In this document: positions 3,436 through 49,566 of the stretch, in pieces | Layout: each line of letters starts with the position of its first letter | Numbering within the stretch: position 1 is the stretch's first letter | Assembly: GCF_000003815.2 (NCBI RefSeq) | Contig: NC_049982.1 | Span: 28,024,329-28,088,328 of the forward strand | Source of the DNA: Branchiostoma floridae | Taxonomy: Eukaryota > Chordata > Leptocardii > Amphioxiformes > Branchiostomatidae | Direction of reading: 5' to 3' | DNA: 64,000 bases | The notes under the pieces: model-generated | The model's input: only the letters and a program-made list of their open reading frames with translations | Told to the model about the DNA's origin: nothing | Databases searched by the model: none | Made by a program: the position numbers and the translations under genes

Positions 3436-4789
3436 CTACTTCTTCCTTCCAACGACGACCCCAGCAGGTTTCTTGCCTCCTCCACCTGGCTTCTTTCCGC
3501 CCGCAGCGCCCGGTTTCTTCCCTCCGGCGGCGCCAGGACCACCGACTTTCTTGCCTCCAGGGCCGCCGGCCTTTTTCTTCCCTCCCGGAGCACCCGGACC
3601 ACCGGGCTTCTTTCCACCAGCGGCGCCCGGTTTCTTGCCTCCGGGACCGCCTGCTTTCTTCCCACCAGCGCCAGGGCCGCCGGCCTTCTTCCCAACTACA
3701 GGCCCGCCAGCCTTTTTCCCTCCTACGGGGCCGCCGGCTTTCTTCCCGGCCACACCGCCCTTCCCACCGGGAGGAACCGGCCCGGGCGGCTTCTTCTTCC
3801 CCTTGGCCTTGATAGCCAACACGGTGTACAGAACGGGGTTGAGAGCCGAGTTGATCGGCAGGATGATGACCGCGGTGAAAGCGAACACCTCGCCGGGGAG
3901 GGCTACCCCAGTCAGCGCCATGATGCCCATGAGAGTGACCGGGAACCAACAAAAGAAGTCGGTCAGCACGATCATGGTCATCCGGGTGGTCATGGTCTGG
4001 GTCTGGCCAGCCTTCTGCTTTCCCGCGGCCTCTCCGGACGCCTTGCCGGCGCTGCGGACGGAGATGAACATGGCGATGTAGCTTACCATGATCAGCAGGA
4101 AAGCGATGAAGTTGAAGACCATAAAGATGGCCACGGAGTACTCGAACCCAGGAGGGCGCTCAGCGGTGATGTGTAAGGGGAGACACACCCCGGAACGAGC
4201 GTAAAACTCGTCATGGAAATACGGCACCTCCATGAGGGGGAAAACCCCCAGAAAGGCCACGATTCCCCAAATCGCGACCATCGTGAGCGAAGCCTGCTTT
4301 GCGTTGATCTTCCACTCCGTCTTGAACGGAAACACGACGGAGATGAAGCGGTCAACCGTGATGAGGACGAGAGAACACACCGACACCTCGCTCGACACCA
4401 CGAAGATGAAGCCAGAAAGCTCGCACAGCCAACTTGTGCGCCACTTCTCATCGTTCCAGATGTACACGTTGCGGTAGAACTCGTCAACAGACGCTATGAT
4501 CATCTGATACACCCCCATCATGAAATCGGCGATCCCGAGATTCAGAACGAGGATGTTTTGGACTCGGCTCTTGCCGAGAGACTGATCTCGGTCGGCGATG
4601 ATCCGACGAATGATGACGTAACCGTTGCCAAGGATGGCGAAGCTTGCGAAGGTCCACATGACCACGCGCAGGCCCTGGCGGGCGATCAGGTCCTCGCAGG
4701 AGGAGAGCTCGTTGGGCTGAGGACTGAACGTGTCGAGTTGTTTGGTCTGGGTGAGAGCCACGCAGACGAATACGTATTTGTCGGTGTGC
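3436..4789 (-). CDS. GPCR exon 19: hinge, seven-transmembrane domain and repetitive C-tail
   Basis: A single 1354-nt exon. The hinge has Cys residues and SSCEDLIARQG, close to the relaxin-receptor hinge. TM1 has GNGYVII; TM2 has LVLNLGIADFMMGVYQ; TM3 ends in TVDRF (DRF in place of DRY); a conserved Cys precedes TM3 and another lies in the second extracellular loop; TM6 has FFCWFP; TM7 has LPINSALNPVLYT. After VLAIKAKGKK a roughly 120-residue tail is composed almost wholly of Gly, Lys, Pro, Ala and Val in units such as GGKKAGGP, ending VVVGRKK and a stop. The GC-rich triplet-like tail makes every other frame look open; those frames are artefacts. Confidence 0.92.
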
Positions 4790-7700
4790 CTGCAATGAAT
4801 GGAAGATGGATGATACGCCTGACTAAAACAGCGCTCCTAGCGTCCGGCCTTACAGTCGCCACCACTCTCAGGGAGGGGGTCATTAACCCCAGCCAGCGAG
4901 AGACTGTGTAAACACAGGCTGGGCTATAACTGATATAAGATATGCAAAATGTTAATGTTTCAATGTTCATCTCTTACTTGTTATGTCACATGTTCCAATA
5001 GTCCAATGCATTGGAACCGAGCAGGTTCATGCAATTTTCTTATTGATTATGCAAATCAGATTATGATTCGCATATTCACCATCTGCTTATGTTGCTTGTT
5101 GTTTGTTTTCTCTTGTGTTCAAGAGTATAATAAAACCTATTGTTCCTGGAGTCTAACTACAATTAAATCAAATACAAAGAACACCAAAGCACATCCTGGC
5201 TTCATGCAATTGATTGCTCTATCCCGGTCATCCAGAACTGAACCCAATCCGAGCACAACTTGGATAGAGCACTTCTTGGATAAAACACTTTAATATAACG
5301 TTCTTGGCAAATTTGATTTTTTTTTTCAACCTTTATTTAACTTTGGTACATCTTCGGCCTAAGCCGTTTTTCAAGATTTCAAGGGTGGGGGAGGTCAGAG
5401 GCCTAAATAGCTTCGAAATACAATGTAGTACACAAAAGATACAATTCAACATTTCATAGCCACTTTCGTATTCAATATAATATCAGTCTATCTCATAGTC
5501 CATTATAATAATAAAAGTTTTACTTACAGCTCACTGAGCTCCGTCAGACCGTCAAACATTCCAGGACCAAATTCTGTGATTTGGTTATCTTGAAGACGTC
5601 TGCAAATCAGATATTGAAAATGTTAATTTTAATACGTCGATGAAGGGTAGACATCGAGGTAATAATATAAGATACGCCAATCAGGTAGCAAGAAACGTCT
5701 GACGGTTTCTAAAATCAATTTTATCCAGTTGCTTGAGTAATTGCTATTTGGCGTACATTTTGATGCTTGTGCTAGTGTTTGAATGGTAATGATATAAATG
5801 CTCGTGATAGTGTTTAAGAATTCGAAGTACCTGTCATATCAATGGGACTAAATATAAAGTTTATTGTTTAATGATATCTAACATATTGTCCTCCATTAGA
5901 ACGTTTGGAAAATTTCTAAATGTGTTTAAAACGATTTAAACGTTTCAAAACGATTTTAACATAATTTTTCATGTTAAAACAAGTTTTTGACTATATGTAT
6001 AATATCTTTACGCAAATATGTGCAGAATCACATATTTGAGATATCCTCCAAATTTGCTCTAGACTGACCCAGTCTGGTAGAAGACAACATAGCATATTAG
6101 GATTGTGCAAGATGTAATGCACCTTTCTCACGTGGCGGCCATGAAATATTGAAGACGGGGTCAATGTGGCAAACAGACAAAACTTATTTCTAAAATTAGC
6201 TCACGTTTAGTTTTCCCCCAAACCACACAGATTTTCACAATAAAAGATCAAGTAGTAAATATTATAAGTCGTGTTTTGCACCGAAAGATGTAGCAATTTA
6301 GGGTAGCGTAGACTGATCCCATAGTCCCTTAAGAGATGCAAAATAAAAATATAATAATGCAAATATTTAACGCACATGCAGCCATTCTCTTATCGGTCGA
6401 TTTTTTAAATTTCCATTCTATGATTGGCTGAACTGCTAATTATGATGGACAGTCTTTTGTTTGCCTCATTGAACTCGTTTTAGATCTATCATTGCCGCCT
6501 TGTGACAAAGGTGTATATTGCTACGTTGAACATGTCACGTGCCATAGCTAGACCGGTGGTCATTCCCACTTCAGATAGTCGGCGGACTTCTTAAAAGCTT
6601 GGTGGTCCTAACAAGGTGTTTACTTTGCGTACTGAAAAATCTTAATAAAATCTGAATAATGGCTATAACGATAATTCATCTTTAACTACGGAATAACCTA
6701 TATCCGTTGTTGACATAAATTCCGTGGACAGTGGTTTTGAATTGAAATGTTTTTAAAAATATGCTTCAAAAAAATTAAGCTTGAAACCATCTTCCGTCGC
6801 CATGATACTAGTATTATCCCTACACCCTGATTTCAGAACTACCGATAAACGTTACCCTGCGGATAAAGGTTAACTAGACTTACAAGTTGACCAGGTTTGA
6901 AGTTGCGGTTGGATCGGATGGATCCGGTGCGAGCATGAAGGCACCGTTGTCCACACTGAAGATCTTATTTCCACTGAGGTCCCTACAGAAACAAACCAAT
7001 TATGCAGCAATACAGTTTCAGAAAGTTCTTTATGCAGAACCACATGATGCTACATTTGCCTATGTTTTGGTTACCGTCTGTATGTTGCTCCCTCTAGGGT
7101 AATACCTCACAGGGCACTACCTCACAGTGCAGCTAGGGGGCGCTGCTGATGTGTTACAGATGCGGTCACAAACGTAAAGTACTGCCACATTTACACGACA
7201 CTTACAAAGATTAATAAAAATTGTAGAGACGGAATTCATTTCTCTGCTTTGACAAGGAGTGCAAAAAAAATTTGAAACGAAATACATTTCGTATCAGAAT
7301 GGTTAAAACGATTCTTATGTAACGAATATAGCGGCTGTACTGATGTCAGCATTTCAACTGTATTATTGATGTTGGTAATTCGTAGAATGTTAACAGGGCT
7401 CGAAATATTTCTCCTTTTTTTTGCATAACTGCATTGGTGCAGGTAACATTGAAAATTACCTGCACCAGACAAATTTTACCTCCACCACTTTGAATTTAGG
7501 AAGTATGAATCATACTAAAATTGTTCACGAATCCATTGCTATCTTTTTCTTCTATACATTATAGGTGGTAACAGCCAATGCAGCTAAGAAAAATCAATAC
7601 ACACCTACATAATAGGACATCTATGTATGAAACACAAAACATGGACCATTGCAGGTTATGTGCAGGTAGCTAGACACCAGAAATACCTGCACAGCTCCAA

Positions 7701-10130
7701 TTGTACCTGCATATACAGGTGGTATTTTGAGCCCTGGTTAAGAATGCATATTTAAGTTTTGGGTACTCACAGAAACTCCAGCCTTCGGAGGTACTTGAAA
7801 GGTTGTCCCTCGATAGTTGTAATCTCATTGGCGCTAAGATCGCTGCAAAATATCATGCAAATGATTATATTACTTATAACTACAGCGTATACATTGTACA
7901 AACCATTAAATGTGACAGAATAAATCAAGCATATAAAACCACCGTTGCAAATTTTCTTTTCAAGCAGGACGTTGACATCTTTCAGTGTTGACTGTTGAAT
8001 GAATCATTTTAATGTTTAAAATGTTACAATTCATGTAAGTTGCTATTGCTTTCCATTTAAAGACCACTATTGCATGCTCCTAATTCATTTTAATTTTAAC
8101 ACATGTTTTGAATGAAATTGATTTTCTAATATTAGCTGATAAAAATAACGGACATAGATTTTAGATTGTTATTGCAAGAAATATAGTAACAGTCCTTTCT
8201 ATTGTATCTTATCATATTATGTAATCTTTGCATTTCAGATTTCTTTGGATCTATTGAGATTTTCTCAAAATATTAAACCATAACTTTATCGTACATGGTG
8301 TATAGGTTAAAATGGTAACTCACAGGTAATACAGGTTGGCTAGCGCTTCCAGTGTGCTGTTGCCGATGTAGTGCAAACTTACGTTCCTCAAAATACTGCA
8401 AACAAACAAAAAAACAAGGCACAAATCACACATACTGCAAGTGTTCAGTTTATACACATTTATATGTTACATCTGAATAATTTTCGAGTTTTAGCATTCT
8501 TTTTCAATCTGTAGCCTTGTGATATTTTCTCAGCTTTGAATGCTTGCTCTCAGAACGGCAGCCGTGGTACCAGACAAAAACACTGTCTGTTAATTTTTCC
8601 TGCAGGTACGTAACTATTTTCTAATAGGCAATACAATGCAATGCAATATTTAGGCATGCCTTAAAAACATGCGTAAAGGGGCATCCCATGAAGGAATGCT
8701 TTACTCATTTCACTGTAAACATAATTAAGAACTTGGTAGTGAATTTATACTTACAGTTCACCCATCAACTTGAAGTTTGTCAGGTCGAGCAGAGTTTCGT
8801 TCTGGAGTGCCGTTCCGTTAACGTCCGTCTTAATCGCCCGTTCGATCTCCAACAGTACAGCGTTGCTTGCATCACTGTAACAACACAGCATTGGTCAATA
8901 CACGTGATCAGATTAACTAGACAACCAATCAACTGTCCGGGGTGAATATCAGGGATCTCCGACTTTTGGGCGTTAGTTGCATAGCTTCATCAACACGTCA
9001 TTGGTCAATACAATTTAATTAGTTAGACAACCAATCAACTGTCTGTACGTTGTGAATATCAAGGATCTCTAACAGTATGGCGTTAGCTGCGCATGCATCA
9101 CTGTAACAACACGCCACTGGTCAAAACATTTAACAAACTAAGTTAACAAATAAAACAACCAATCAACTGTCTGTGATAACTATAGGAACTCTCCAACAGT
9201 CGGGTGTCACGGTAACAACACATCATTGGTCAATACATTTATCAAATTAACTAGACAACCAATCAGCTGGCTGGGATAACTATAGGGAATCTCCAACAGT
9301 CGAGTGTCACTGTAACAACACGTCATTGGTCAATTCACTTATCAAATTAACTAGACAATCAATTGCAGTGAACTGTCTGTGATAACTATGAGGAATGCCC
9401 AACAGTCCGGCGTCACTGAAACAGAATATCATTGGTTAATACACTTATCAAATTAACTAGACAACCTATAAACTGTCTGGGATGCCCATGAGGAATTTTC
9501 AAGTCGGGCGTCACTGAAACATCGCATCATTGGTCAACACATAAGTCAAATTAACTAGACAACCAGTCTACTGTCTAGGATAACTATGAGGCGTCACTGA
9601 AACATCACGTCATTGGTTAACACATAAAAGTATGTCAAATTGATTAAACAACCAATCAACTGCCTGTGGTTAATATATCTAGGGTCTCCAACAGTCGGGC
9701 CTTAGCTGCATCACAGTAACAACACATCACTGGTCAACACACTTGTAATTGAATTAACTAGATGTGTTGAAGCGAAAATAAAGGAAGATTTTACCTAGTA
9801 CCAAGCACTGAGTTCAACACTCACAGTTTTCGAAGTTGTTTGGTCAGTTTATCCAGGGTTACGTCAAACCTGTTGTTTGGACATAAGAAAGACAGTCCCT
9901 CGCATTTGCAGCCTTTGGGGCACTCGATACCTGTAGGATACAACATACTTGTAAAATAACACTATTGGGTTGATGTATATGAAGAAAACATTCCAATTTT
10001 CCCTCGACTTTATCGAAAGTAAAAATGTGTTATCCTAAAAGCTGCACTGCTTGAAACCTAATTGATTTGAAGTCTCTGCCCAAGTACCAAATATCAAGAC
10101 TACTTACTGAGGTATTCTTGATCTATCATG

Positions 10131-10189
<59 letters not shown>

Positions 10190-13100
10190 ACACGCGCACA
10201 CACATACACACACACACACACACACATACACACACGCACACACACATACACACACACACACACACTCACGAACGCACACACGAACACACACACGCACACA
10301 AACATTGCATGTAAAGCTTTGAGTTTCTAGGTAACAAACTCTTGCATGTTGCACCCGGAAACTTGACATTTTTAGCGATTTACGGGACATGTCGAACAGG
10401 ACACACTGCCTGTCCGGGCCATCGGCACACCCACAAATTTCCGGAAACGAACCACATTTGTGCTCGGTACGTGTCCAAGGCCTGTGCATTTCCGTACACA
10501 CACACAGGCATATGCAACAACACTATCCAAAATCATATAACCTTGTGGCAAAGGTAACAATCAGTAATGTTGGCAAAGCTTAAGTCTTACCGCAGTTGAA
10601 CTCATCGTCTCCATTTGGGCACTGCCTGATGCCATCACAGCGGTTCTCCATGGGTGTGCAGCTGCCGAAACTGTTGCAACGGTGGGCGCCAGGGCACTCG
10701 TAACCCTCTGTAATAGTAAAAGCAACGAATTTATAACTATCAATGCAAGGCATGCTTTTTTTGTGTGTTTCTGTGTGTGTCTCTCTGTGTGTATGTGTCT
10801 CTGTGGTGTGTATACATGTGTGTGCGTGTGTGTGTGTGTGTGTGATACCATGTTTATGTATGCACGTGATTGTGTGTATGTATGTGTGCGCAGATGCCTG
10901 TGTGATATGTGTGTCTGTGTGTGTAATTGGAAGTGTGTATGTGTATGTGTATGTGTATGAATATGTGTATGTGTGTGCGCGCGCCTGCATGTGAGTGCTT
11001 TTGTGTGTGGATGTGTGTAGGGGCTTCAATCTTTAATGTATCCCTATGTTTATTTCCTTTTCATTTATTTGATTAATTAATCAATTCATCCGTCCATACC
11101 CTTCCATCCATTTATACATTGAAACATTATTTTTTTTATTTCCCTAGTCCCTTCCTTTCTTTTACCAATCAACAAGTTTTTCGTTGATTCCTTACTACTG
11201 TGCTTTCATCCTTCGTTTTACAATGATTCATTCATTTTATCATTCATTTTCTTGTTTCGCTCATCCATCTATCCACCCATCATTCCACGCATTCATCCTT
11301 TTATTCATTTGTCAATCCATCCAGTCATCAATCTATGCATTCATCCTTTTATCAATTTGTCAATCAATCCATCCATCAATTCATGTATTCATCCTTTTAT
11401 TCATTCATCCATCCATCCATTCATTCATCCATCCATTCAATTCCTTCCTTCCTTCCTTCAATCATTCATTCATCCATCTATTCATCTATCCATTCATTCA
11501 ATGCCTTCCTTCCTTCCTTCAATCATTCATTCATTCATTCATCCATTCATCTATCCATTCAATTCGTTAATTCACTCGTCCATTATCCATCCATCCATTC
11601 ATTCGTTCGTTCATTCATTCAGTCATCCATCCATCCATCCGTACCACAGTTCTCCTCGTCCTCCCCAGTGGAACAGTCCATCTTCCCGTCACACCTCATG
11701 TGCTGCGGGATGCAGTATCCCAGGTTGCATTGCAGGTGGTTTATCGGACACACAAACTCTTTCGCTGTCCCACAAAAGAATAAACAAAAAAAATCATAAA
11801 TAATACATCATACGTCCGTAAAATAGTTTTTTATGACTTTCTTAATGCCGCAGCGTATGCTTTAGGCCATACATATTCGAAATACCAATGCTATGAATGT
11901 TCTATTTCCTTTAAAAGAAATCTCAGTTTGTACTTGTACTGTACATCTATACCACCATATATTTTTCGCTGTCTACTGTTATTCAAACTGCAAAAAAGTG
12001 TAGTAGTCTGCATTTATTCAATGATTTCATTTGTTAGGATTCTCCACAGTGAAGGGTATGGCGGAACAGGTGTCAAAAGACACCTTTTCGAAGCCGCCAT
12101 ACCTTAAACATAACAATGATACATCAAATCATAATATACATAAAATACAAGAACAGATATTATAATCAATGTAATGTTCAAATCAAGATAAATCAACTTA
12201 AATTAAGAACACACATACATTATTGAGTCCAAATCTATGAAATATTTGATTGCTACCTTCACATAGAGTTGCTGTACGGGTCAACGAAGACACCCGTAAT
12301 GAAACCAGCACTATATTCGCGCACGCACAACTTGGAACAATCTGTACCATGCTATACTATCATGCTCACTTCCTGGGAGCTTAGCCAAAAAAAACACGTC
12401 TACATGTTACTCACAGCATGGCCTAAGATGGGTAAGATCCCAACACCCTATCATGACCCCCCTCGTTGTCCTGGTTGCACATAAAATCGCTAAATTCGCG
12501 CAGATGCAACTTGGAACAATATGCACACTATCATGCTCACTTCCTGGGAGCGTAGCCAAAAAAACACGTCCACATGTTACTCACAGCATGGCCTGAGATG
12601 GGTAAGATCCCGGCACCCCATCATGACGCCCTCGTTGTCCTGCTCGTAGATACACGTGCTGTTCGGGCTCGAACACACCCCGTTCTTGCAACGGATCTGT
12701 CCTTTCATCGGGCAGGTGAAAGTTGGGCTCTTGTAATCTATATGGGACAAAGTAAAATATACTAAAAAGAAGTTGTTGTTAATTTCTTGGTATACTTATG
12801 AAGGCTTTTCTTGCTTAGGTTCATTGTCAATAAAAATTAATCCCTAGGTTAACGTTGTCTAAATGCACATTGAATTAAAGGCTGAACGGCTTGGAAAGAC
12901 TTATGAGTCAATTTCATTTCCTGTCACCATTTTTGGACCTTTCTATCACCTTTGAGCTAACTTCATGTTAGTGTCCCCGACGTGCCTAGCATTCAAATGC
13001 CAACTGCAGAATTGCCGACACAAATGGCTACAAACAAACACACCGAGTGTTTACAACACCTCTGGTTTTATTGAGGCAATAGCGCTTAATATAAATCACT

Positions 13101-16100
13101 TTATGGATTCAGAATCAAAATAGAAAAGACTATAAAAGGGTTCTTTGCTATATATAAGAGCATATTCAAAATAGGTTTTGGTGACCGTCTGTCACCTTTC
13201 TCAGGGCAATAATGACTAATGGTTATACTTCGCATCGCAGCTAGGTGTCGCTGTTACAGTCTTGAAAAGGCGGTCCCAGATGTAAAGTATTGTCGCATTT
13301 GCATGAACTTTGTCAAGCAACAACAGCAAGAGCGTGGACAATTATCAAGGTTTTTCTTAAACAAACAAACGTACCACAGTCGAATGGTTCGTCTTCACCG
13401 ATGTAGCCCATGCAGTCTATCTGGCCGTCGCAGTATCGCTCAATATTCAGGCACGAGCCGTCAAAACACTGGAAACCCTCTGGGCAGAAATCTATCGAGG
13501 TAAACAAAAGGAAACAAAATTAAACGGAATATATTATTTAACTGTTCACCACCTCGAATGGGTCACTCGAATCATTCAATCTCCTTAAGCTCGCACTCAG
13601 TCAATATTGACGCGTGACTTTATGTATGTGTGACGTCAGCAATTGGTCAAAGGTTGTTGGAAGTTAACATCGTCCCTCATCCCTACAAAAGCTTATTTTG
13701 CGCTATGGAACGATTTATTAGAAATAGATATCCTTAGTAGAAAGTTGACCTGCGATCCGTCCCTTGCTCTGCCTTAGCGCTGGACAGCCATTAACCAATC
13801 AAATTCAAGTATTCAGTCAAGAGTCACCGTGATTGGCTAGTTTAACTAATTGGTTGACGGTTTAACCATCGCTAACGAGTCAGATTCATTGGGCCAGGGT
13901 TATTTCTTGACGTGTATGCAGGCCACGGGCTTGGTATTCGAGGGTTAAGAAAACGAAACCTTACCACAACGAAATTCATCCGAACCGTCCGAACACTGGT
14001 AAATGCCGTCACAGACCTGAGACTTCAGCACGCACTGTTCAGAACCGCACCTCATCTCGTTGTCTTCACATGGTGGGTAGACTATAGGAAACAGAATTTG
14101 CAGATTCTGAAGTAAAACATGATTTTACCGGTGCGATGTCCAAGAGTGTTTGCCTTGCGCTCAGAATGTTCGAAGAATGTTCCCATACCCTAACCTGGGC
14201 AAACCAAAGACTTGAAAAATGGTACCCAGTGCTTCTCTGCATATAGCACTCAGTGCTAAGGAGTACCAAGATACAAGCACCAACTGAAGGCTTACTTCGA
14301 AGATGGGCAATGTACTGAAATACAATTAAATACATATGCAATGTACATTATGATTGTACAGAGTATACACCGGAAGGTGTGAGATGGATCTTAACTAACT
14401 TAACTGGTGTCATATATTATTTGGAAAAAAATATAACAATAATTGTTATAATTGCAAACGACAGTAAGGCAAATATCTAGTTCGATACTGAAATCGAACT
14501 AATGAATGTGGGGCTTTAGTTGATATCTGTTACTTACCAAAGTTTACAGAAGGATGATTACCTAATAATGTTAGGTTAAGCGCTCATTGCATTCAAGCAA
14601 GCAGAAACGTTAAGTAACAAATGTTTTTAATTCAGGCAACGGTTTCGCTGACCGCCTGTCACATTCCTCATGGTATACATTGAACTGCAACTAGGTGTCG
14701 CTGCTAAAACTGCGGTCCCAAACGCAAATACTGTCTTCTTCACATTACATTACAACAAGCAACAGTAACGAGAGAAATGTCACAGAGGTTTTGATTCTTG
14801 CAACAACTTTGCCATTGTTGTCAGTACACAAAATTGGTCGTAATTAGTTTGAACTTTAAAAGGTCCAACTTACCACAGTGAAGTTCGTCCCTACGGTTGC
14901 TACACTGTAAGTTAAAGTCACAGAAAAAGGATAGGGAGACACATTCCGTCTTTCCACGAGAACCACACTCGAAACTGAACGGAGCACACCCCGTTGAAGC
15001 TACAAATGTCAAAACAAGAAGAAAAAACACGTGTGTTATTAGCATGTTGAAGAAAACGCACACACAAACGTATGTACACACACATATTCACGCACGCACA
15101 CACATACATATATACACACTGGAGTATATAGTCCAGCTACTATACTAACCCTGTATAAATTTATATTCTTAACTTCGCCCTTGTCCTTTGGATATACACT
15201 CCGGTACTTGCCAACTTCAAAACAGATTAGACAGTACATATACAATTAAAATTACAGATTCGTACAAAATATATTTCTAGCACTCAATATGCTACACAAT
15301 TATGGAAGTCTTCCACAGCTATTTCAGAAGCTGACTCACCGAGGGGTACAATTTTTGGGGCATTGCTGTCAAGTCAAGCAGGAAATAGTTTCGTCCGTTC
15401 TCCTTTGGAAACCAAGTGGCCGGGTACATTGCAGAAGTTTGACTTTTACGGACACTGTGACGGGCTCTGGTATCGATTTTGAGAACTTAGAAAAAGCTTT
15501 AGACAGGGCTTTAAATTTCTGGTGTGAAAAATGTACTAGCCTGGTCCAGACCTCTGGTTAATAGTCTATGTAATGTATGTATGTAACACAATTGGGGCAA
15601 TAAAGGTTGACAAAAAACGTTTGATACATACGGCATTCTTCCTCATCCTCCCCATCAGGACAGTCGTTTCGTCCATCACACTTGAACACGTCCAGTACGC
15701 AGGACAAGTCGCTACAGGTGAAGTGGGTCCTTGGGCACGGGGGGCCAGGTCCTGATGGAGGTTGGTAGAATATAGGATATTGGACAATTCTTTTTACACC
15801 ACCAACAGGTACTTACATAGCTTACGTGTCTCGATGTCTCTCGACACCTTCATCAGAGCTTCTAAACTGGAGCTCTGCTATATGTAGCCAACTACGTCGG
15901 CTACATAAAGCGTTGAGAAGCAAACCTCCAGTTAGAAGCTCTGTGACATCGAAACGTAAGCAATGTAAAAACCTGCTGGTTGTGTAAGAGAATTCTCCTA
16001 TATCCATTATAGTACAGAGTTACAATTTTACCCAGTGATACATGTAATCCCATGTAACAAATTTGTCATCTCAAGAAATCAAACTTCAAGCCACACAAGT

Positions 16101-17250
16101 GCTAGGCTACCATGTCTAGTCCCATCAAATTTATTTGCAAGAATTTTTACGGGTAGTCTGCAGATAGAGAGACCCCTAATCAGGGCCCTTGGAATTGTTT
16201 GATTGCTTAAAACAGCTATCTATCTGGCGATGATACACATGCAATCACATAGATCTGGAAAGCGGTCAGACGTTTCATGTGGCATCCACTATCTTTCGTC
16301 AGTGACTTAAGACTCCCCTAACGAAAGCTCCACATCCATCATTATTGCTGTTCCATGAGAGCCGATAAGTAGAACAATACTAAAGAACATGCATCTTGTC
16401 CAAGTACTACATTCTATCTATCACCTTCCAAGAAAAAAAGGGTCTGAATTACAACTAAGGGTTAGAATTTAGACGCACTCACTGAGTTTGTCAGACTTGA
16501 GTACTGCCTTGTAGGGATCGTACGCATCCAAGTCCGGCACGTCTGTAAAATAATTTGAAAAAAGAATCAATACTTCATGAGAGGAATTATTGTTGTTCAC
16601 ATTGTATGTAGTGGCGCATTGGTCAGTAAGTTAGTTGTTTGCTGTATCTGTAGCAGGGTATATGTGTTGCAGAGAAGTATTGCCTGCAGGGCCAGCAGTC
16701 AGAAAAGGCCAGCAATCAGCGACCCAGTACAAAAAAGAAATGGCCAGAAAAAAGTTTATTGTGAGCCAAAGAAAGGACCTAGGGAACCTGTTATGGAGGC
16801 TAGGCCACGCCCTTTTAAGTCAAGGTCACAACTGGAAAAAAGGCGCTGCCTTGATAAAAAGTTCCCGGGCTATTTTGTTCGCACTTCCGAGCGTAACCAC
16901 TACGTATCCCCGTTGGGGTCTATACGTGGCGTGGTCCCGACTTAAAATCAGCCAGGGACCCGACGACGAATAGACGTCGTGACCTACCCATGAGAATACC
17001 GAGAGGTACCCCCGCGGTATCCAGCAGTAGCATGCAGAGCAGTAGTCAGAGCAGGGTACAGAAGAGGACAGTAGATTACAGCAGAGTACAGTGCAGTAGT
17101 CTAGAGTTGAATACTAGCAAAGTACTGTAACAGTAGAGTACAGCAGAGTACAGAAGAGAACAATAGAGTACAGCAGAGTACAGTTCAGTAAAGAAGAGTT
17201 GAGTACAGCAGAATACGCAGAGTACAACAGATCATATATATATATATATG

Positions 17251-17317
<67 letters not shown>

Positions 17318-20300
17318 CAGTGGAGAACAACAGAGTAGCAGAGTATAGTAGAGTACAGAAGAGTACAACAGAATACTGTAGGGTACAGAAGAGTACAGCA
17401 GATTACAACAGAGTACAGTATAGTACAACAGATTGGGTTACAGTAGAGAACAACAGAGTAGAGTATAATTGAGTACAGCAGAGTATAATGGAGTACAGAA
17501 GAGTACAGCAGAATACTGTAGAGTACAACAGAGTACAGTATAGTACAACAGAGTACAGCAGAGTCACAGAAGAGCTATAGCAGAGTAAAGTAGACGTCTT
17601 TGGCCAGGCACGATCATAGAAAATCGCATTCCTAAAAGCGTAGATTTTATTTATCTTACCATTCTGAAGTCGAAAGCCATACAGTTCGAGCCTCATGGCA
17701 GGGGGAGTGTGCTGGACTCCGGTTTCGTTCTTGCCGATCCAGTCTACCGGATAGATCCGGATGATCTGCGTCACGAAGGGGTAGTCCAGTGTGTGTCGCA
17801 CGGCGTCTTCCTTACCCATGTTAGTGGTCCAGCCTTCGTTCCCAAAGAATATCTATACGACAAACGGCAACATTATTAGTTAGGCTAACGTCCGTAGCGT
17901 GACTAGTACACTGCCAAAAATGATTAGTTTTCGTATTTTGCTTTACCAATGGACAATTCTTATTATGAAGAAAAATATTCTTACAGAAGGAAATGTAGAA
18001 TAAAATTCAAGCAAAATCTTCTTCTTCTTTCTTATAATGCAAGAAAAAATACAAGAAATACAAGAATTTTCTTCTTCCTGGAAGATAAATTTTCTATGAG
18101 GAAGCAAAACAAGATGAACATGGAAAAGCATTTCTTGAAATACAAGAAAACAAATCTCAAATTGTCTCAAAAACTTAACAAGCAAACATTTGCTTGCCCC
18201 ATCATATCCGGGACAAGCACCTTTTTTCTAAGATTACTTCGGAACCTAAAGGTCGATACCCTCGCCGTGCCCCCGACACCGTGCCCTTGTCAATGACACG
18301 AAACAGACCATTCTCACTCCACCCAGGTGTAAAAATGGGTACTAGCCCTCGTTTCCAAAGAATATCTATACGGTAAACGGCAAGAGTATGAGTTTGGCTA
18401 GCGTCAAATTTCTAACTCGGAGCCATGTGTTGAGAACCATAGATTATGCAAATCAGTTCCTCCTTTGCATATATTTCATGGGGTTAGTAGGCAACCTCAC
18501 GTACGTGGTCTGGTGTGTCTTTGTGCATAAATTATGCAAATCAGCTCCTCCTTTACATATATTCCAACGAGGCAGCCAGCTCCTGGATAAGGAGATGGAG
18601 CGACAAGATATGATAATTTCATGGAGCTTACGTGTTCTGGCGTGTCTTCCGAGGTCCCGTTCTTGTACGGCTTCAAAGCCGTGATGTTCTCGCCGTATTG
18701 GAGCGTGTAGGCCGTGACGGCGTAGTCCTTGTCCCGGTGGCCCCAGGTGGCTATCCCGGTGATCTCCGTGGACAGCCACATGTCGATCTGGAGCCACTCC
18801 AGGCCGTCCCACTCCTCCCACGGGACGTTGGACATCCAGTTGGGCAGGCTGCTGTAGAACCAGTCCCTAAAGCCCCACTCGTCCAGAGATATCCCCGATA
18901 TCCAGCCACGCCTGTTGGTATAGGGAGGAAAGAACACGATGCTTTTTTCTTTCAAATTTTTGAAATGAATATATTTAATCGTTATACCCGATTTAGAATG
19001 CGTTTTCTGAGTCTAATCTGATATAGGTTTCTAGTGGGATTGCTACTTGTAATTTGCAAGCAAAAATTGTTTATGATTATGGGCTTTCAGTGCTTTAAAG
19101 TTGGGCAAAATTTCAGGTTTTCACATACTGAAAACAGTGCATTGTACTAGTTTTCAGGTTGCCAGAGACCTTAGGTTGTACAAGAGATGGACTTTACGGC
19201 TATTTCATACAAACTTCTAAAGGCATTGAACTTATCAGCACATTCTGCAGTGTAAAGTGGATAAATGTAGTTGTGCGTACTTGTGAATGCGAGCCATGGC
19301 CGGTCGGTTGTAGTATTCTAACTATTCTAACTGCAGTATGACCGCATTCTGCGGCATGTCAACATTATTCGAAACATTCTTATCTCATTCAACGGAGAGC
19401 CGAAACGGCAAGCCACATCGAATTCTGCCACTTTACGGCTATTTCATCCAAACTTAGGCATTGATCTTATCAACACATTCTGCAGTGTAAAGTGGATAAA
19501 TGTATAGTTGTACGTACTCGTGAATGCGAGCCATGGCCGGCCGGTTGTAGTAGTCCTGGTACGACCATGCCGTGATCTGCTCGTTCAAGATGACTCCGGA
19601 CTCCATTCCCAGGTCACAGATCCTGTCTGAAAATGTAGCATTTTATATTCCTGACAGCAGTTGATAGTGGTGCGTACCTAAACTCATATTCAGGTTCAGG
19701 TCCGGATTCAGGTCCAGCAGTTCAGGTTCAGGTCCGGACTTTAAGTCCGGACCTGAACCCATCATTGCGTATTATGTGCGCTAGAAAGTTTTCTTTTTTG
19801 AGGGGGAGGGGGGATGGTGCATATAAAATTGCATGTTAGCATGAACTGAAATGCAATGTGAAAAAAAAAACTTATATACAGTCAGAGTAAACACAAAATG
19901 TATTTTGTGGCTTTTTCCAGTGCAAATTTCACTGACTATGGAAGGTTTTAGATGGTTTAGAACAAGAAAAGGGGATATAAATGACAGGTAGCTTTTTGCA
20001 AGTCTGGACTTGAGTCCGGATATTTAGTTTTTTTTTGGACTTGGACCTAAACATTTTTAGTTTGGTGTATAAACATTTTTAGGTCCAATTCCAAGTCCGG
20101 GGTTTAGGTACGCACCACTAGCAGTTGATAAACCAACTCTAGCCAACCATACAGCTAGCTACATTTATGCAATTACCAAGAAGCGAGAGGAAGTCGAATG
20201 TCCTAGAATAGATCAGACGCATATCTGCATATATAAATGTGTATGATTGTTTCCATTGTTACATATATGTGATACTAACTATGCGACCTGTACTTCGCCC

Positions 20301-23300: not shown

Positions 23301-26300
23301 ATTCAGATACAATAGAGGTGCGACTTGTGCGTGCGGCCGCGTATTGAAGAAATTAGTCAAAATGTCGAAAAATGTCAAAACGGAACTCATGCGGCATGAA
23401 AATATACGCAGGTGTAAACCCACCTTTAAGGGCTAATCAAAATCATGATACTTNNNNNNNNNNNNNNNNNNNNNNNNNNNNNNNNNNNNNNNNNNNNNNN
23501 NNNNNNNNNNNNNNNNNNNNNNNNNNNNNNNNNNNNNNNNNNNNNNNNNNNNNGACAGGGGGCGTTACTGTATCAGTGAAGAATGCAATGCAGGCTTAGA
23601 TAAAACTTGTCTGGATATCATTAAAGGCTAATCAAAACCATGATACCAGCACGATGTCAAAGGCCTTCAAGATCCCTAGGCGTGCACTTCGACATTTGTC
23701 GATAGGGGTCGCTACTGTCCCAGTCGAATGTGAGGCATTAGGGCTGGGTACCGGTACAGAAAATTCAGGTACAGGTCCGGTTCAGGTCCAAAGGATCAGG
23801 TCCAGGATCCGGACCTGAACCTGGACCTGATTCAGTATGACTCATACCAATGGTGCATTTCACTACAAAGAAATCTGTTTGTAAAGTATTAGACTTACAC
23901 TGGCGTTTTAAAATCCTACAACGCTAACTGCACCTGTACGATTGACTGTAAACCTTGGTAGAAATTACTATAAACTCTAATCTACTTCACTCTTGTCATT
24001 TTCTTCCAACTGCAAGCGCCAAAACGTGTGAATGCCTGATCAAATAATATGTTAATTTTCTAATCGGTCCAACATCCGGTCCACCGAACTTTTCAGGTCC
24101 GGTTTTTCTGGACCGGTCCAATAAGAAAAACCGGTTTTGTACCGGTACGCTGTACCGATACCCAGCCCTATGAGGCATGCTTACGTACTTTAAATGGAAT
24201 ATCAGAACAACATAGCTTAATATACAAAAAGGGCCATACTGATTTGATCATATAAATTCCATGGGCGCCCGAAAACGAGCGTGCAAAAATAGTGAAGAAA
24301 TGATAATAAACACTCGGCTAGGATATGGTCTTTTCTAAACAATGCATTATTTATTTCTGTTCTTTTGCATTTCCAGCCTACGATACACATGGCAAAAAAT
24401 ATCTGCGGNNNNNNNNNNNNNNNNNNNNNNNNNNNNNNNNNNNNNNNNNNNNNNNNNNNNNNNNNNNNNNNNNNNNNNNNNNNNNNNNNNNNNNNNNNNN
24501 NNNNNNNNACTTATGTCACGGTAGCAAATTCGCGGTGTGAGAAAAAATTAAGTGTTAACGGCACTCTATGTTCGCGGTGGCGGCGGTTCACCAAAAGAAA
24601 GTCGGCCTGTTTCGGCCGTGATTTGATGACAGCGCACGGAACGCAACAGGGCCAATGACCCCTGATATGTCGCAATCACATTTGCCGCATAGGCTGACGG
24701 GATACCCACGCCAAACACAAGCGACGCGGGCGCCATTTTGAAATATTTTCGGCGTGAAAGACGGCGCTAAGTTTTAAACTTTCAGCGTAATTTGTGGACA
24801 CAAATTGTACACAAATTGTACACAAGGAGGTGAAGAGTTTATCTCTCCGATATTTACAGTAGTTCCAACTCAGAATTATGAAACGAACGTCTTTTTTTCG
24901 GCATGTAAGCGGAGTTTTGTTTGCCACGTTTCTAGTCGTAAAAATTTCCCCGCTATTATTGTTGTGAATCTTAGTTGCTGTAATTCCATAGCCATTACTT
25001 GTATTTGTAAAGACCGGTACTACTCAGTTTTATTTTTTGTTCTGTTTTTAACTTGTAGAAATCTAGTTAAACTATGATAATGTACTAAGTAGATTGTTAT
25101 CGCAGCCATGTCACGGCGTGTACGTAAGTTTTGTTAGTAAACAAAGCCGATATGTTTCTTTTTCCTCCGGTCGCCGGTGGCACATTTCTATACAATAATG
25201 ACTCCCTGTATCGTATATGTGTTGAATCAACTTTTATTTTTACAACATACTGGTATTTCAGTAAATTCGCTGGTTTATTTGTACTCATCACCTGAAATTC
25301 CGCGACTTTGTTGAAAATTCCTTTGTCTAACGCTTGGCTTGGGTACCGCCATTTTGTAACATTTTTTTTATGTATCGCTAGCTGTAGTTGTACAAATATA
25401 CGAGTCATTTTTTGTACTAGTACTAGTACTTTCAGTGATGATCCTGTAGTAATTCCTTGCTTGAATAGCACTGTAGTAGTTTTTTAGTTTGTAAATGTAC
25501 ACATGCTGCCTGCTAGCGGCGATGTAAACAAAATAGCGGTTTATGTTATCGTAACGTAAACATGAACATAAGTAAAAGAAATGACACAATTTTGTGCTTG
25601 TAGAATAAATGTTTTATTTCTTGAGGAGAATTTGTGTTTGAGTTGTTATTGTGGCGATCGTTGCGTGTTGAAAGTGTGTTGTGTGAATGGATAAGACATT
25701 CGTAACGTACTAGTAAGTACTAGTTCTAAGTACTTGGATGGTAGCGGAGAAGGGGGAGGGGGGCGAAAGACGAATGATTTTTTAACGGCAATGATAACTT
25801 CGCGGCACAGACGTCACCGTGAAAACCGTGAACATAAAGTTACCGTTAATAAAACAGGAATTACAGTATACATTACGACGAAACTTTCGCGGTGGTTTAC
25901 TGTTCGCGGTTTTCGTGGTGGCCGCTTCGACGCGAACTTAAATCCACCGCGAACATTTTTTCATGGCGGTAAGAGACTGCAGTGCAGGGTGCTACAGCGA
26001 AATTAAAAACACCGTGAAAAGTCCTTTTTCCCTCTACCGCGAAATTAAATCCCCACGTTTATGCATTTACAGTATTGTAAGGTATACTGTGTGCTGAAAA
26101 ATAACATTCAGGCTCACCGTAAAGCAGAGATTGTAGCACATTGTACAGTCAAACCGGTCCTATTTATAAGCTTGAATCCGATCAAAGTTGACATTTTTCT
26201 ATTAATTCTCCAAGCGTAGATTATAGGTTATTCAGATTGTTTTGACGACTTTTCTAACTGTTTCATCATGCTGAGAATGTTTTTAGGTTTCCGTTTTGTC

Positions 26301-26616
26301 CATTTGTTTGGCGGATAAAAAAAGATACTAAACTAAAAGAGAAAGTCCGATAAAAATGAGTAAGAATTGATATCAAAACCAGCCAGAGCCTAACGAAGAA
26401 AAAGAAAACAAAATCCTAGTAAACAACATGTTACAAAGAACGCACCAAGGAAGGAATAAATTTTGTTCCGTTTTCGATACTGTTTTGGCCTTATGAAAAG
26501 GATAATAACAAATATGTCTTCTCACCTTGTTCGATGTAAATGAACCGCCTCTCGGATAAGAGTTGAGATCGTACGCAGGCGATAAGGGCGACAAACGCAC
26601 ACAAACAAAGGGCCAT
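3436..26616 (-). CDS. Discoidin-LDLa(x7)-LRR G-protein-coupled receptor (GRL101/relaxin-receptor-like), 19 exons
   Basis: Spliced minus-strand gene. Exons: 26616-26526, 19626-19518, 18911-18632, 17852-17660, 16542-16483, 15751-15632, 14999-14874, 14081-13965, 13491-13375, 12737-12585, 11764-11645, 10707-10591, 9930-9825, 8874-8755, 8395-8324, 7842-7771, 6982-6884, 5599-5528, 4789-3436. All junctions are GT-AG, phases agree throughout, and the sum is 3498 nt (1165 aa plus stop). Order: signal peptide 1-18, F5/8C about 34-222, linker 225-244, seven LDLa 245-534, LRR N-cap and LRRs 535-715, hinge and 7TM about 716-1044, basic Gly/Lys/Pro tail to 1165. The 7TM core carries NLGIAD, DRF, CWFP and LPINSALNPVLY, the signature of type C LGRs (relaxin receptors, molluscan GRL101). 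The role is inferred to be a plasma-membrane receptor; the ligand is unknown. An in-frame upstream ATG at 26649 is possible, but 26616 has the better start context (ACCATGG). Confidence 0.88.
5528..9930 (-). CDS. GPCR exons 13-18: LRR N-cap and leucine-rich repeats
   Basis: Exon 9930-9825 carries the Cys-rich N-cap (CPKGCKCEGLSFLCP), starts in phase 1 and ends in phase 2. Five exons follow, all phase 2-2: 8874-8755, 8395-8324, 7842-7771, 6982-6884 and 5599-5528. The 72-nt exons each encode one 24-residue repeat (LDLSANEITTIEGQPFKYL and LRLQDNQITEFGPGMFDGL are typical). The 6982-6884 repeat carries a 9-residue insertion, PDPSDPTAT in outline. In type C LGRs this LRR horseshoe binds the hormone, so ligand binding here is an inference by family. 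Confidence 0.85.
7068..7200. repeat. Interspersed repeat shared by three GPCR introns (copy 1)
   Basis: The segment with TTGGTTACCGTCTGT, CTAGGGGGCGCTGCTG, GCGGTCACAAACGTAAAGTA and CTGCCACATTT is recognisably the same sequence as at 13185-13365 and 14637-14800. No terminal inverted repeats were found. It could be a SINE fragment or duplicated intron sequence. Confidence 0.5.
7394..7736. mobile_element. MITE with CAGGGCTCGAAAT inverted termini and a 5-bp duplication
   Basis: Starts CAGGGCTCGAAATA and ends TATTTTGAGCCCTG. It is flanked on both sides by GTTAA (7389-7393 and 7737-7741). Internal sequence has paired GCAGGTAA/TTACCTGC motifs. The size is 343 bp with no coding sequence. A relative with the same terminal pattern lies at 58135-58435. 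The termini and short duplication fit hAT-related MITEs of the 5-bp type; the class is inferred. Confidence 0.7.
8846..9765. repeat. Nine-copy intronic tandem repeat that includes a splice acceptor and exon start
   Basis: About nine units of 90-125 bp, each with CTCCAACAGT, GTCACTGTAACAACAC, CATTGGTCAA, AAATTAACTAGACAACCAAT and AACTGTCTG. The first unit overlaps GPCR exon 14: on the minus strand its TTACAG acceptor and the first ~30 coding bases are part of the repeat unit. The later units therefore carry decayed copies of that splice boundary. Confidence 0.8.
10130..10300. repeat. (CA)n microsatellite
   Basis: Nearly uninterrupted CA dinucleotides with a few CG/TA variants, in the GPCR intron between exons 12 and 13. 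Open frames in it are low-complexity artefacts. Confidence 0.95.
10591..10707 (-). CDS. GPCR exon 12: LDLa module 7
   Basis: A phase 1-1 exon of 117 nt with CDGIRQCPNGDDEFNC and six Cys. It is the module closest to the LRRs, the position of the single LDLa module in vertebrate relaxin receptors. Confidence 0.85.
10757..11010. repeat. (GT)n-rich microsatellite
   Basis: Imperfect TGTG/TATG runs on the plus strand, complementary in type to the CA array at 10130-10300 and flanking GPCR exon 12 on its other side. Non-coding. Confidence 0.9.
11045..11640. repeat. (CATT/CATC)n tetranucleotide array
   Basis: About 600 bp of CATTCATCCATC-type tetramers with interspersed TTCCTTCCTTCC blocks, ending next to the donor of GPCR exon 11. 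It reads as Ser/Ile/His repeats in several frames but is not a gene. Confidence 0.9.
11645..11764 (-). CDS. GPCR exon 11: LDLa module 6
   Basis: A phase 1-1 exon of 120 nt with CDGKMDCSTGEDEENC, a good calcium-cage sequence and six Cys. The tetranucleotide array at 11045-11640 abuts its donor side. Confidence 0.85.
12315..12479. pseudogene. Intronic partial copy of LDLa exon 10 (tandem duplication)
   Basis: Sequence 12315-12479 repeats 12493-12646 at a spacing of about 180 bp (TTCGCGCA, CACTTCCTGGGAGC, CATGTTACTCACAGCATGGC, ATGGGTAAGATCC). The repeat includes the GTGAGTAAC donor and the 3' part of the LDLa exon. In this copy a run of extra G (minus sense, near GAGGGGGGTC) shifts the frame and there is no acceptor-side half, so it is a dead exon fragment. 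Confidence 0.8.
12585..12737 (-). CDS. GPCR exon 10: divergent LDLa-like module 5
   Basis: A phase 1-1 exon of 153 nt, the longest of the series. Six Cys are kept, but the second half (EQDNEGVMMGCRDLTHLRPC) has no DGSDE signature, so it is probably a structural module without calcium binding. The adjacent intron holds a broken copy of its 3' half (12315-12479). Confidence 0.75.
13185..13365. repeat. Interspersed repeat shared by three GPCR introns (copy 2)
   Basis: Same sequence family as 7068-7200 and 14637-14800 (GACCGTCTGTCACCTTTC, GCAGCTAGGTGTCGCTG, GCGGTCCCAGATGTAAAGTA). It lies directly downstream, in gene sense, of LDLa exon 9. Confidence 0.5.
13375..13491 (-). CDS. GPCR exon 9: LDLa module 4
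   Basis: A phase 1-1 exon of 117 nt with six Cys. The last loop is extended (CMGYIGEDEPFDC), but acidic residues remain in the calcium-site positions. Confidence 0.83.
13965..14081 (-). CDS. GPCR exon 8: LDLa module 3
   Basis: A phase 1-1 exon of 117 nt with CDGIYQCSDGSDEFRC, the textbook LDLa calcium-binding signature, and six correctly spaced Cys. Confidence 0.87.
14637..14800. repeat. Interspersed repeat shared by three GPCR introns (copy 3)
   Basis: Matches 13185-13365 over GACCGCCTGTCAC, CAACTAGGTGTCGCTG, GCGGTCCCAAACGCAAATA and CAAGCAACAGTAACGAGAG. It sits downstream of LDLa exon 7, in the same relative position as copy 2 beside exon 9. Confidence 0.5.
14874..14999 (-). CDS. GPCR exon 7: LDLa module 2 (degenerate calcium site)
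   Basis: A phase 1-1 exon of 126 nt with six Cys. The calcium-cage end reads CDFNLQCSNRRDELHC. It keeps the final Asp-Glu pair but lacks the usual SDGSDE acidic series, so calcium affinity may be reduced. Confidence 0.8.
15632..15751 (-). CDS. GPCR exon 6: LDLa module 1
   Basis: A phase 1-1 exon of 120 nt with six Cys in LDL-receptor class A spacing and the calcium-cage sequence CDGRNDCPDGEDEEEC. A canonical module. Confidence 0.85.
15798..15990. mobile_element. Foldback (snap-back) element
   Basis: An imperfect palindrome. CAACAGGTACTTACATAGC, TTACGTGTCTCGATGTC and CAGAGCTTCTAAACTGGAG on the left pair with CTCCAGTTAGAAGCTCTG, GACATCGAAACGTAAGC and ACCTGCTGGTTG on the right. The centre is itself palindromic (TGTAGCC...GGCTACA). 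About 190 bp, non-coding, in the GPCR intron between exons 5 and 6. Confidence 0.65.
16483..16542 (-). CDS. GPCR exon 5: short acidic linker
   Basis: A 60-nt phase 1-1 exon coding VPDLDAYDPYKAVLKSDKL between the discoidin domain and the first LDLa module. It has good AG and GTGAGT sites. No domain is recognised. Confidence 0.65.
17030..17590. repeat. (AGAGTACAGC)n decamer-like satellite
   Basis: Dozens of imperfect copies of AGAGTACAGC/AGAGTACAAC on both sides of an internal TA tract. The array abuts the donor side of GPCR exon 4. Both strands show spurious open frames. Confidence 0.9.
17233..17314. repeat. (TA)n microsatellite
   Basis: A near-pure TA run of about 80 bp with one GTATG interruption, embedded in the AGAGTACAGC array. 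Confidence 0.95.
17660..19626 (-). CDS. GPCR exons 2-4: F5/8 type C (discoidin) domain
   Basis: Exons 19626-19518, 18911-18632 and 17852-17660 encode residues 31-224. Hallmarks are CDLGMESGVI near the start, ITAWSYQDYY, WLQIDMW, ITGIATWGH, YTLQYG, FVTQIIRIYPVDW and the closing AMRLELYG. These match the conserved beta-sandwich core of F5/8C (coagulation factor V/VIII, discoidin) domains, which usually bind phospholipid, glycans or matrix. The first Cys is present, but the usual closing LYGC is LYGF, so the standard N-to-C disulfide is absent. N-glycosylation sequons occur at NIT, NGT and NET. The three-exon cassette begins and ends in phase 1. Confidence 0.88.
18342..18410. pseudogene. Intronic copy of the acceptor edge of GPCR exon 4
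   Basis: CGTTTCCAAAGAATATCTAT, ACGGTAAACGGCAAGAG and TTGGCTAGCGTC repeat the sequence at 17834-17895, which spans the start of exon 4 and its AG acceptor. On the minus strand the copy reads from ATAG into IFFGNEG and then a stop, so it cannot act as a full exon. Confidence 0.7.
18443..18527. pseudogene. Intronic copy of the donor edge of GPCR exon 3
   Basis: ATTATGCAAATCAG, TCCTCCTTTGCATATATT and CACGTACGTGGTCTGGTGTG repeat the sequence at 18530-18655, which spans the exon 3 donor (CTTACGTGTTCTGGCGTGTC on the plus strand). This is a short tandem duplication carrying the splice site. Confidence 0.6.
19180..19320. pseudogene. Intronic copy of the donor half of GPCR exon 2
   Basis: ACGGCTATTTCATACAAACT, CACATTCTGCAGTGTAAAG, TGTGCGTACTTGTGAATGCG and CATGGCCGGTCGGTTGTAG match 19433-19555, which covers the GPCR exon 2 donor and its last ~35 coding bases. 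Similarity then stops. It is a broken exon copy about 250 bp away. Confidence 0.8.
19665..20120. mobile_element. hAT-type MITE with a perfect 8-bp target duplication
   Basis: Begins TAGTGGTGCGTACCTAAA and ends TTTAGGTACGCACCACTA. Flanks are GCAGTTGA at 19657-19664 and GCAGTTGA at 20121-20128. Length 456 bp, with internal CAGGTCCGGA motifs in both orientations and no coding sequence. Eight-base duplications and short inverted ends are the hallmark of hAT elements. Confidence 0.87.
20285..20340 (+). repeat. LINE 3'-tail-like fragment
   Basis: GCGACCTGTACTTCGCCCAG, then TGTGCAATTAAGTTCTTCAT, the same tail as at 2570-2635. An isolated fragment. Confidence 0.35.
20469..20840 (+). mobile_element. 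tRNA-derived SINE
   Basis: The head looks like a tRNA, with an A box (TAGCACGGTGG, about 20479-20489) and a B box (GGTTCGAATTC, about 20522-20532). The body has GGCACTTTACACGACTTTCC, CCTCGGATAGGACGTTAAAT, GGTCCCGTGTATGGGGAGAG and CACGTTAAAGAACCC. That body resembles the central domain shared by SINEs of many marine invertebrates (the MetaSINE/MESC type, from memory). A diverged relative on the other strand lies at 53290-53520. Confidence 0.75.
22457..22708 (+). mobile_element. LINE ORF2 C-terminal fragment
   Basis: The frame reads CPFCPELIEDEYHFMVVCP, a Cys-Cys-His-Cys knuckle, then KYSDIRNSLYRRL and on to a stop at 22708. This is the typical C-terminal region after the reverse transcriptase of non-LTR retrotransposons. 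The polymerase part is missing. A related fragment lies at 45541-45795. Confidence 0.65.
22773..22849. repeat. Near-perfect 37-bp hairpin in the LINE 3' region
   Basis: Arm 22773-22809 (GAGGTACAAAGTATGACATC...) is complementary to arm 22813-22849 with a single mismatch and a 3-nt loop. It is followed by TTGTTGTGCAATAAAGTTAT, a LINE-type 3' end. It may be the structured 3' end recognised by the element's own reverse transcriptase (inference). Confidence 0.85.
23454..23553. other. Assembly gap (100 N)
   Basis: Exactly 100 undetermined bases, the conventional size for a gap of unknown length. It lies in GPCR intron 1. Confidence 0.98.
23739..24170. mobile_element. hAT-type MITE with a perfect 8-bp target duplication
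   Basis: Starts TAGGGCTGGGTACCGGTAC and ends GTACCGATACCCAGCCCTA. Flanks are TGAGGCAT at 23731-23738 and at 24171-24178. Length 432 bp, with subterminal CAGGTCCGG/GGTCCAGG repeats and no coding sequence. The same family occurs as a 74-bp copy at 53080-53153. Confidence 0.9.
24409..24508. other. Assembly gap (100 N)
   Basis: A second run of exactly 100 undetermined bases in GPCR intron 1. Confidence 0.98.
24510..26525. other. Remainder of GPCR intron 1, no exon seen
   Basis: Holds fragments rich in TTCGCGGT/ACCGCGAA motifs (about 24530-24600 and 25790-26070) that end in GCATTTACAGTA, a terminus seen in a widespread MITE type. The rest is AT-rich unique-looking sequence. The open frames show no protein character. 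Confidence 0.5.
26526..26616 (-). CDS. GPCR exon 1: signal peptide
   Basis: Codes MALCLCAFVALIACVRSQ followed by LLSERRFIYIEQ, then one nucleotide of the next codon (phase 1) before GTGAGAAG. The hydrophobic stretch and small residues before SQ fit a cleavable signal peptide. The next exon is 6.9 kb away. Confidence 0.75.

Positions 26617-28285: not shown

Positions 28286-49566
<21,281 letters not shown>

Follow-up and report, generated by a model that had tools for sequence, protein, structure and literature searches.

A Branchiostoma floridae gene predicted to encode a GRL101-type LGR with an F5/8C head

A single gene on the minus strand of a 64,000-nucleotide stretch of Branchiostoma floridae DNA (hereafter the window, i.e., the whole stretch that was analysed) very likely encodes an orphan GRL101-type (type C2) LGR that carries an F5/8C (discoidin) head, and there is little doubt about the gene and the receptor class taken together. 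The evidence comes from the reconstruction of the gene, from its comparison with amphioxus database models, and from the position of the predicted receptor among GRL101-like proteins, some of which bear other heads on a similar body.

Gene model and domain order

Reconstruction from position 26616 to position 3436 yielded 19 exons, in which 18 of the 18 introns are GT-AG, the phases are consistent, and the sole stop codon is the terminal one. The spliced product has 1165 residues, which is exactly the count given by the sequence-only reading, in which the 19 exons had been joined in phase into one protein. This protein presents a signal-peptide-like start, an F5/8C domain, seven LDLa modules (one of them divergent), LRRs, a rhodopsin-type 7TM, and a Lys/Gly/Pro tail, distributed over the exons as follows (window positions).

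Exon 1, 26526..26616, minus strand: start codon and signal-peptide-like segment, residues 1-30 (signal peptide judged by eye)
Exon 2, 19518..19626, minus strand: beginning of the F5/8C domain, residues 31-67
Exon 3, 18632..18911, minus strand: F5/8C core with a Trp/acid-rich insert, residues 68-160
Exon 4, 17660..17852, minus strand: end of the F5/8C domain, residues 161-224
Exon 5, 16483..16542, minus strand: linker from F5/8C to LDLa, residues 225-244, 19/20 identical in B. lanceolatum
Exon 6, 15632..15751, minus strand: LDLa1
Exon 7, 14874..14999, minus strand: LDLa2
Exon 8, 13965..14081, minus strand: LDLa3
Exon 9, 13375..13491, minus strand: LDLa4
Exon 10, 12585..12737, minus strand: LDLa5, divergent, with the motif GCRDLTHLRPC; recognised via module 5 of the Ptychodera protein P0133
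Exon 11, 11645..11764, minus strand: LDLa6
Exon 12, 10591..10707, minus strand: LDLa7
Exon 13, 9825..9930, minus strand: LRR N-cap; 3 residues from the last LDLa Cys to the first N-cap Cys
Exon 14, 8755..8874, minus strand: LRR
Exon 15, 8324..8395, minus strand: LRR
Exon 16, 7771..7842, minus strand: LRR
Exon 17, 6884..6982, minus strand: LRR
Exon 18, 5528..5599, minus strand: LRR
Exon 19, 3436..4789, minus strand: hinge, 7tm_1 (residues 788-1036), Lys/Gly/Pro-rich tail (residues 1043-1165), and stop codon

In the spliced protein, Ldl_recept_a (118.1 bits), 7tm_1 (107.1), LRR_8 (60.4), and F5_F8_type_C (36.1; cut-off 28.2) each exceed the curated Pfam cut-off, which provides the LRR ectodomain and the rhodopsin-type 7TM of a type C2 LGR; the several LDLa modules of that type are also present, six of them recognised by Pfam at E up to 1 and the seventh being the divergent module of exon 10. 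Phase 1 introns flank the F5/8C block on both sides and surround every LDLa module, and those around the LRR exons are of phase 2. The C-terminal tail (window 3436-3807) comprises 123 residues, including 49 Gly, 30 Lys, 18 Pro, and 16 Ala.

An additional exon near 22.4 kb in intron 1 was considered and dropped, given that neither the frame nor the match to the B. lanceolatum protein P0001 requires one. The splice-site scan listed no site there, although sites of the accepted exons 2, 3, and 5 were missed as well, so that the scan offers no evidence either way. Intronic copies near 19.3, 12.4, and 9.0-9.7 kb were also ruled out as exons, as they correspond to duplicated exon edges: the edges of exons 2, 10, and 14 were duplicated into the adjoining introns (19318-19223, 12473-12356, and 9762-8954, respectively) with 72-92% identity, in three separate cases.

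Continuity of the head with the receptor body

The predicted protein P0001 of B. lanceolatum (1206 residues) has the same domain order, F5/8C included, with PF00754, PF00057, LRR, and PF00001 in its Pfam listing, and spans the entire query with 87% identity. This identity is distributed as 19/30 residues in exon 1, 145/194 in F5/8C, 19/20 in exon 5, 264/290 in the LDLa array, 161/180 in the LRRs, and 305/328 in the 7TM, and differs in the tail, where only 26/117 residues are identical. None of the 18 exon joins is gapped in the alignment, and the sole gap ahead of the tail falls within exon 1. The tail of P0001 contains many Arg, Glu, Cys, and Trp residues, and resembles another frame of the same repeat.

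A quite different reading is that two neighbouring genes were merged in this model, one for a secreted discoidin protein (exons 1-5) and the other for a receptor with a later start. The F5/8C exons are, for example, missing from two of the three amphioxus database models (P0002 and P0003), and are present in P0001. The B. floridae model P0002 (830 residues), which is 100% identical over its span, begins at a Met within LDLa3 and thus misses the signal peptide, the F5/8C domain, and two LDLa modules, whereas the hybrid model P0003 (903 residues) opens with approximately 40 unmatched residues that include a hydrophobic run, followed by LDLa2. In addition, intron 1 holds two 100-N assembly gaps (23454-23553 and 24409-24508), so the link between exons 1 and 2 rests on the scaffold and on the likeness to P0001, to which exon 1 is matched by tblastn with an E-value of just 0.024. 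A receptor could also begin at LDLa2, given that the ATG at 15045, shortly upstream of exon 7, is in frame and is followed by a hydrophobic stretch (15045-15000) which leads into this module, and makes a headless start possible. Against all this, P0001 is predicted as one protein, in the same order and with ungapped joins, exon 5 contains no stop codon, and an intron of 731 bases separates exon 5 from exon 6. If the genes were separate, one would not expect the linker exon to stay open in frame with 95% identity, and the merger of two genes is considered highly improbable. The sequence-only reading, which had proposed a single gene with this order of domains and had named transcripts of a separate gene for exons 1-5 as its refutation, is supported as to gene and domain order by the in-phase exons, and the refutation is opposed by the continuity of P0001, itself a prediction, over the 18 joins.

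On the other hand, the same models may reflect alternative promoters, in which a long isoform would carry the F5/8C head and a second, shorter isoform would be headless, with the head being a regulated option. Database models exist in both forms, the stretch opened by the ATG at 15045 is a signal-like lead in frame into LDLa2, and P0003 likewise begins with a hydrophobic run ahead of this module. The T/C-rich tract that precedes an acceptor site will encode a hydrophobic stretch in any case, however, and a start at 15045 would forfeit LDLa1, while no signal peptide is evident, by eye, where P0002 starts inside LDLa3. Regulated use of the head through a second promoter is rather unlikely. The B. 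floridae model P0002, being truncated, conceals this head.

Receptor class and nearest relatives

The GRL101-like receptors have been termed type C2 LGRs in the available text of PMC4079206 and PMC11863921, and they fall into two sorts, i.e., GRL101 proper (LDLa, LRR, and 7TM) and a sort in which CUB and C-type lectin domains are frequently added; the sampled hemichordates possess both sorts. The GRL101 of Lymnaea shares the multiple LDLa modules, the LRRs, and the rhodopsin-type 7TM with the amphioxus receptor, and differs from it in its reported 12 LDLa modules and six LRRs, with no mention of F5/8C in the available portion of PMC8286064.

The order of the LDLa modules is an ectodomain witness independent of the 7TM tree. 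Six of the seven amphioxus modules, the divergent fifth included, are best matched by the module in the same place in P0133 of the acorn worm Ptychodera flava, the exception being LDLa3, which picks module 1 of P0133 (score 90, with a second best of 86). The control proteins P0144, P0123, and P0124, all GRL101 proper, show no such same-order pattern, although some modules taken alone score equally with GRL101 proper (for LDLa3, 103 with P0144 against 90 with P0133). In P0128 of Glandiceps talaboti, five of the seven modules are in the same order, with the modules poorly cut. The order was judged on P0133, because the regular expression used to delimit the modules cut them poorly in P0128, P0131, P0004, and P0011. 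A strict GCRD-THLR motif was found in 14 of the 237 fetched proteins and in the window, and the 11 of those 14 that entered the tree all lie on the amphioxus side, while a looser GCRD motif (34 of the 237, plus the window) reaches the hemichordate GRL101 proper. P0133 and P0128 also share the LRRs, the 7TM, and the GCRD motif with the amphioxus receptor, and differ from it in having CUB and C-type lectin domains of their own and no F5/8C match; P0128 starts near its CUB domain, and may be a truncated model.

In a 52-row tree of the 7TM, the amphioxus side (25 rows, with CUB/lectin and other GRL101-like receptors) is separated from 27 rows of GRL101 proper, cnidarian, and RXFP proteins with a support of 95/95. 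On the amphioxus side, CUB or C-type lectin domains are found in the Pfam lists of 13 of the 21 rows that are not from amphioxus; on the far side, CUB is listed in six of the 27 rows, all of them cnidarian, and lectin in none. The rows were a selection (47 and then 51 proteins) from the 131 database entries that matched the 7TM, and the matching split in the first, 48-row tree was supported by just 83/66, so that the rise in support coincided with an altered set of rows: Saccostrea P0121, a long branch, was removed, and P0007, P0143, P0145, P0179, and P0199 were added. Three tunicate LDLa-7TM proteins with short matches (P0022, P0029, and P0036) were excluded from both trees. In the AU tests, the grouping of amphioxus with the RXFPs was not rejected (p 0.26) and its grouping with GRL101 proper was borderline (p 0.0515).

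The 7TM had been described as relaxin-receptor-like from the letters alone, and this description holds, given that RXFP1 is the best match by sequence of the LRR-7TM part among solved structures (E 7e-56), ahead of TSHR, FSHR, LHCGR, and LGR4. RXFP1 shares the LRR-hinge-7TM core, and is not known to carry an F5/8C domain. The AlphaFold2 model of P0002 (mean pLDDT 69.7) shows the strands of the LRRs and seven long helical segments, with a tail of low confidence; when it was compared by Foldseek, the glycoprotein-hormone receptors FSHR, TSHR, and LHCGR, together with LGR4 and a nematode LGR, outranked RXFP1 by E-value, the latter being 35th, with 31% identity (the highest among the 50 matches listed) and an rmsd of 2.3 over 290 columns. 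No GPS family, as would be found in an adhesion GPCR with a GPS/GAIN region, is present among the 12 Pfam hits at E up to 1.

This best structural match by sequence, together with the AU value of the RXFP grouping, could indicate that the gene is the amphioxus relaxin receptor (type C1, RXFP1/2-like) instead of a GRL101-type receptor. Such an assignment is very unlikely, as the protein has seven LDLa modules rather than one or two, the best trees place it apart from the RXFPs, and the last LDLa module and the LRRs are separated by 3 residues, in contrast with RXFP1, which has one LDLa module and requires a 32-residue linker between LDLa and LRR (PMC4837482, available portion).

Given this, the predicted receptor is a GRL101-type (type C2) LGR that bears an F5/8C head and lacks the CUB-lectin head seen in its nearest relatives. 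The latter appear to be LGRs with CUB and C-type lectin domains from hemichordates, chelicerates, and lophotrochozoans. In terms of the CUB/lectin subgroup, a grouping made here, the amphioxus receptor shares the same-order LDLa modules and the strict GCRD-THLR motif, and Pfam detects no CUB or C-type lectin head in it. The kinase-like tail of these relatives is missing as well. No CUB, lectin, or kinase exons were found hidden in the window when it was searched with seven heads and three tails of the relatives, the best match (E 0.095) being the Pecten F5/8C domain on exon 3.

A kinase-like tail lies past the seventh helix in P0128 (residues 1246-1323, PF07714, 24.4 bits against a cut-off of 23.1) and in P0156 (residues 1226-1312, PF00069, 24.5 bits, below the cut-off of 31.7), and similar-looking tails were recognised by eye in P0133, P0131, P0004, and P0011. 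Kringle domains are listed for the GRL101-like proteins P0195, P0176, and P0148, and a thrombospondin type 1 domain is also listed for P0176.

Origin and possible role of the F5/8C head

The sequence-only reading had held that no type C LGR carries an F5/8C domain. This claim fails, because proteins with F5/8C, LDLa, LRR, and 7TM from several phyla are already in the databases. An architecture search for LRR and 7TM matched 345 proteins. Many of the 120 that were listed are named GRL101 and belong to several phyla, and at least four combine PF00754, LDLa, LRR, and 7tm_1, i.e., P0131 (abalone, Haliotis asinina), P0142 (scallop, Pecten maximus), P0148 (the annelid Dimorphilus), and P0001; PF00754, LDLa, and LRR are also listed for P0011 of the sea spider Nymphon. 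These GRL101-like proteins of Haliotis, Pecten, Dimorphilus, and Nymphon place F5/8C first, followed by LDLa and LRR, and the first three share the 7TM, whereas P0011 has no 7tm_1 match. In all four of them, unlike amphioxus, CUB and C-type lectin domains sit between F5/8C and LDLa. The F5/8C domain of P0148 is below the Pfam cut-off (26.9 against 28.2). A comparable case is that of the GRL101-like SudRes2 receptors of Biomphalaria sudanica, which are also LGRs whose outer end bears an extra recognition domain, although theirs is a C-type lectin head, termed unique in the available text of PMC12297450.

The literature, in the portions available, contained no report of an F5/8C domain in an LGR, which is a weak test of absence from print. 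Discoidin is cited among the domains of amphioxus Adhesion GPCRs (PMC2246102, available portion). As far as these sources extend, neither the exchange of heads on a GRL101-type receptor body nor its compact form in a chordate seems to have been reported.

The head is of the factor V/neuropilin type. A pair of Cys usually joins the two ends of an F5/8C domain, and the C-terminal one of these is missing from the amphioxus head. In the window, the domain has a single Cys (C34), with a Phe at the expected position of the last one, so that the end-joining pair is absent. The B. lanceolatum copy, which reaches 60.8 bits in Pfam, has two further Cys that are absent from B. floridae, and a disulfide was perhaps lost as a pair in the latter. 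The B. lanceolatum domain reaches 77.5 bits against factor V, and that of the Pecten receptor 80.4 bits against factor VIII, which indicates that both are ordinary members of the family. The three lophotrochozoan receptor copies score 25-67 bits among themselves and at most 5.5 with amphioxus, and the amphioxus copies score 14.4-33.5 bits with cnidarian F5/8C domains. In a tree of 20 F5/8C domains, amphioxus is placed beside the b1 domain of NRP2 (80/79), and the lophotrochozoan trio is grouped together (96/98). On the other hand, a single clade of receptor heads was not rejected by the AU tests (p 0.185 with Nymphon and 0.229 without it), and an earlier tree, which included cnidarian but no vertebrate domains, had a weakly supported branch (70/67) with the six receptor domains all to the same side of it.

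The phase 1 introns at both ends make the F5/8C block a movable cassette, and we lean slightly towards a head that was newly acquired in amphioxus rather than inherited. A broader reading, offered only tentatively, is that of a sensor with exchangeable heads, in which the LDLa-LRR-7TM body of a deeply conserved orphan LGR subfamily would bear F5/8C, CUB, C-type lectin, or kringle domains according to the phylum, and in which the phase 1-1 cassette of amphioxus, related to neuropilin and factor V, would have independently replaced the CUB-lectin head, in convergence with the F5/8C heads of lophotrochozoans.

The receptor body has a conserved class A core. With regard to the working of the receptor, the LDLa array and the LRRs may capture a secreted ligand, and the hinge and second extracellular loop may relay its binding to the helices and the G protein. 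Activation of RXFP1 needs the LDLa module together with the 32-residue linker mentioned above, and a switch of this type is unlikely to work alike across the 3 residues between the last LDLa Cys and the first LRR N-cap Cys. GRL101-type receptors are still described as orphans (PMC11863921), although GRL101 has been proposed as a second insulin-like growth factor receptor, in which the basic tail of the ligand binds the LDLa modules, according to the available portion of PMC8286064, where vertebrates are also reported without GRL101-type receptors. By analogy with this proposal, the amphioxus ligand would perhaps be a peptide of the insulin type that has a basic tail, a possibility to which we give somewhat less than an even chance. 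The F5/8C domain would be the outermost contact and would gather the receptor or its ligand at the surface of a membrane, glycan, or matrix, where the sequence-only reading had also suggested docking; we infer this role of tether or co-receptor from the known uses of the domain, and the case for a surface tether is evenly balanced.

A chordate member of the GRL101 type, with a compact ectodomain free of CUB and lectin, is a practical subject for ligand finding, to which two sister species with differing head cysteines add further use, and the amphioxus receptor would test whether the outer heads bind surfaces or ligands.

Elsewhere in the window, a 48-base unit is repeated 13.5 times at 47643-48290 with a 97% match and several open frames, and a reverse-transcriptase ORF of 473 codons (61810-63231, minus strand; PF00078, 116.1 bits) represents a copy or remnant of a retroelement.
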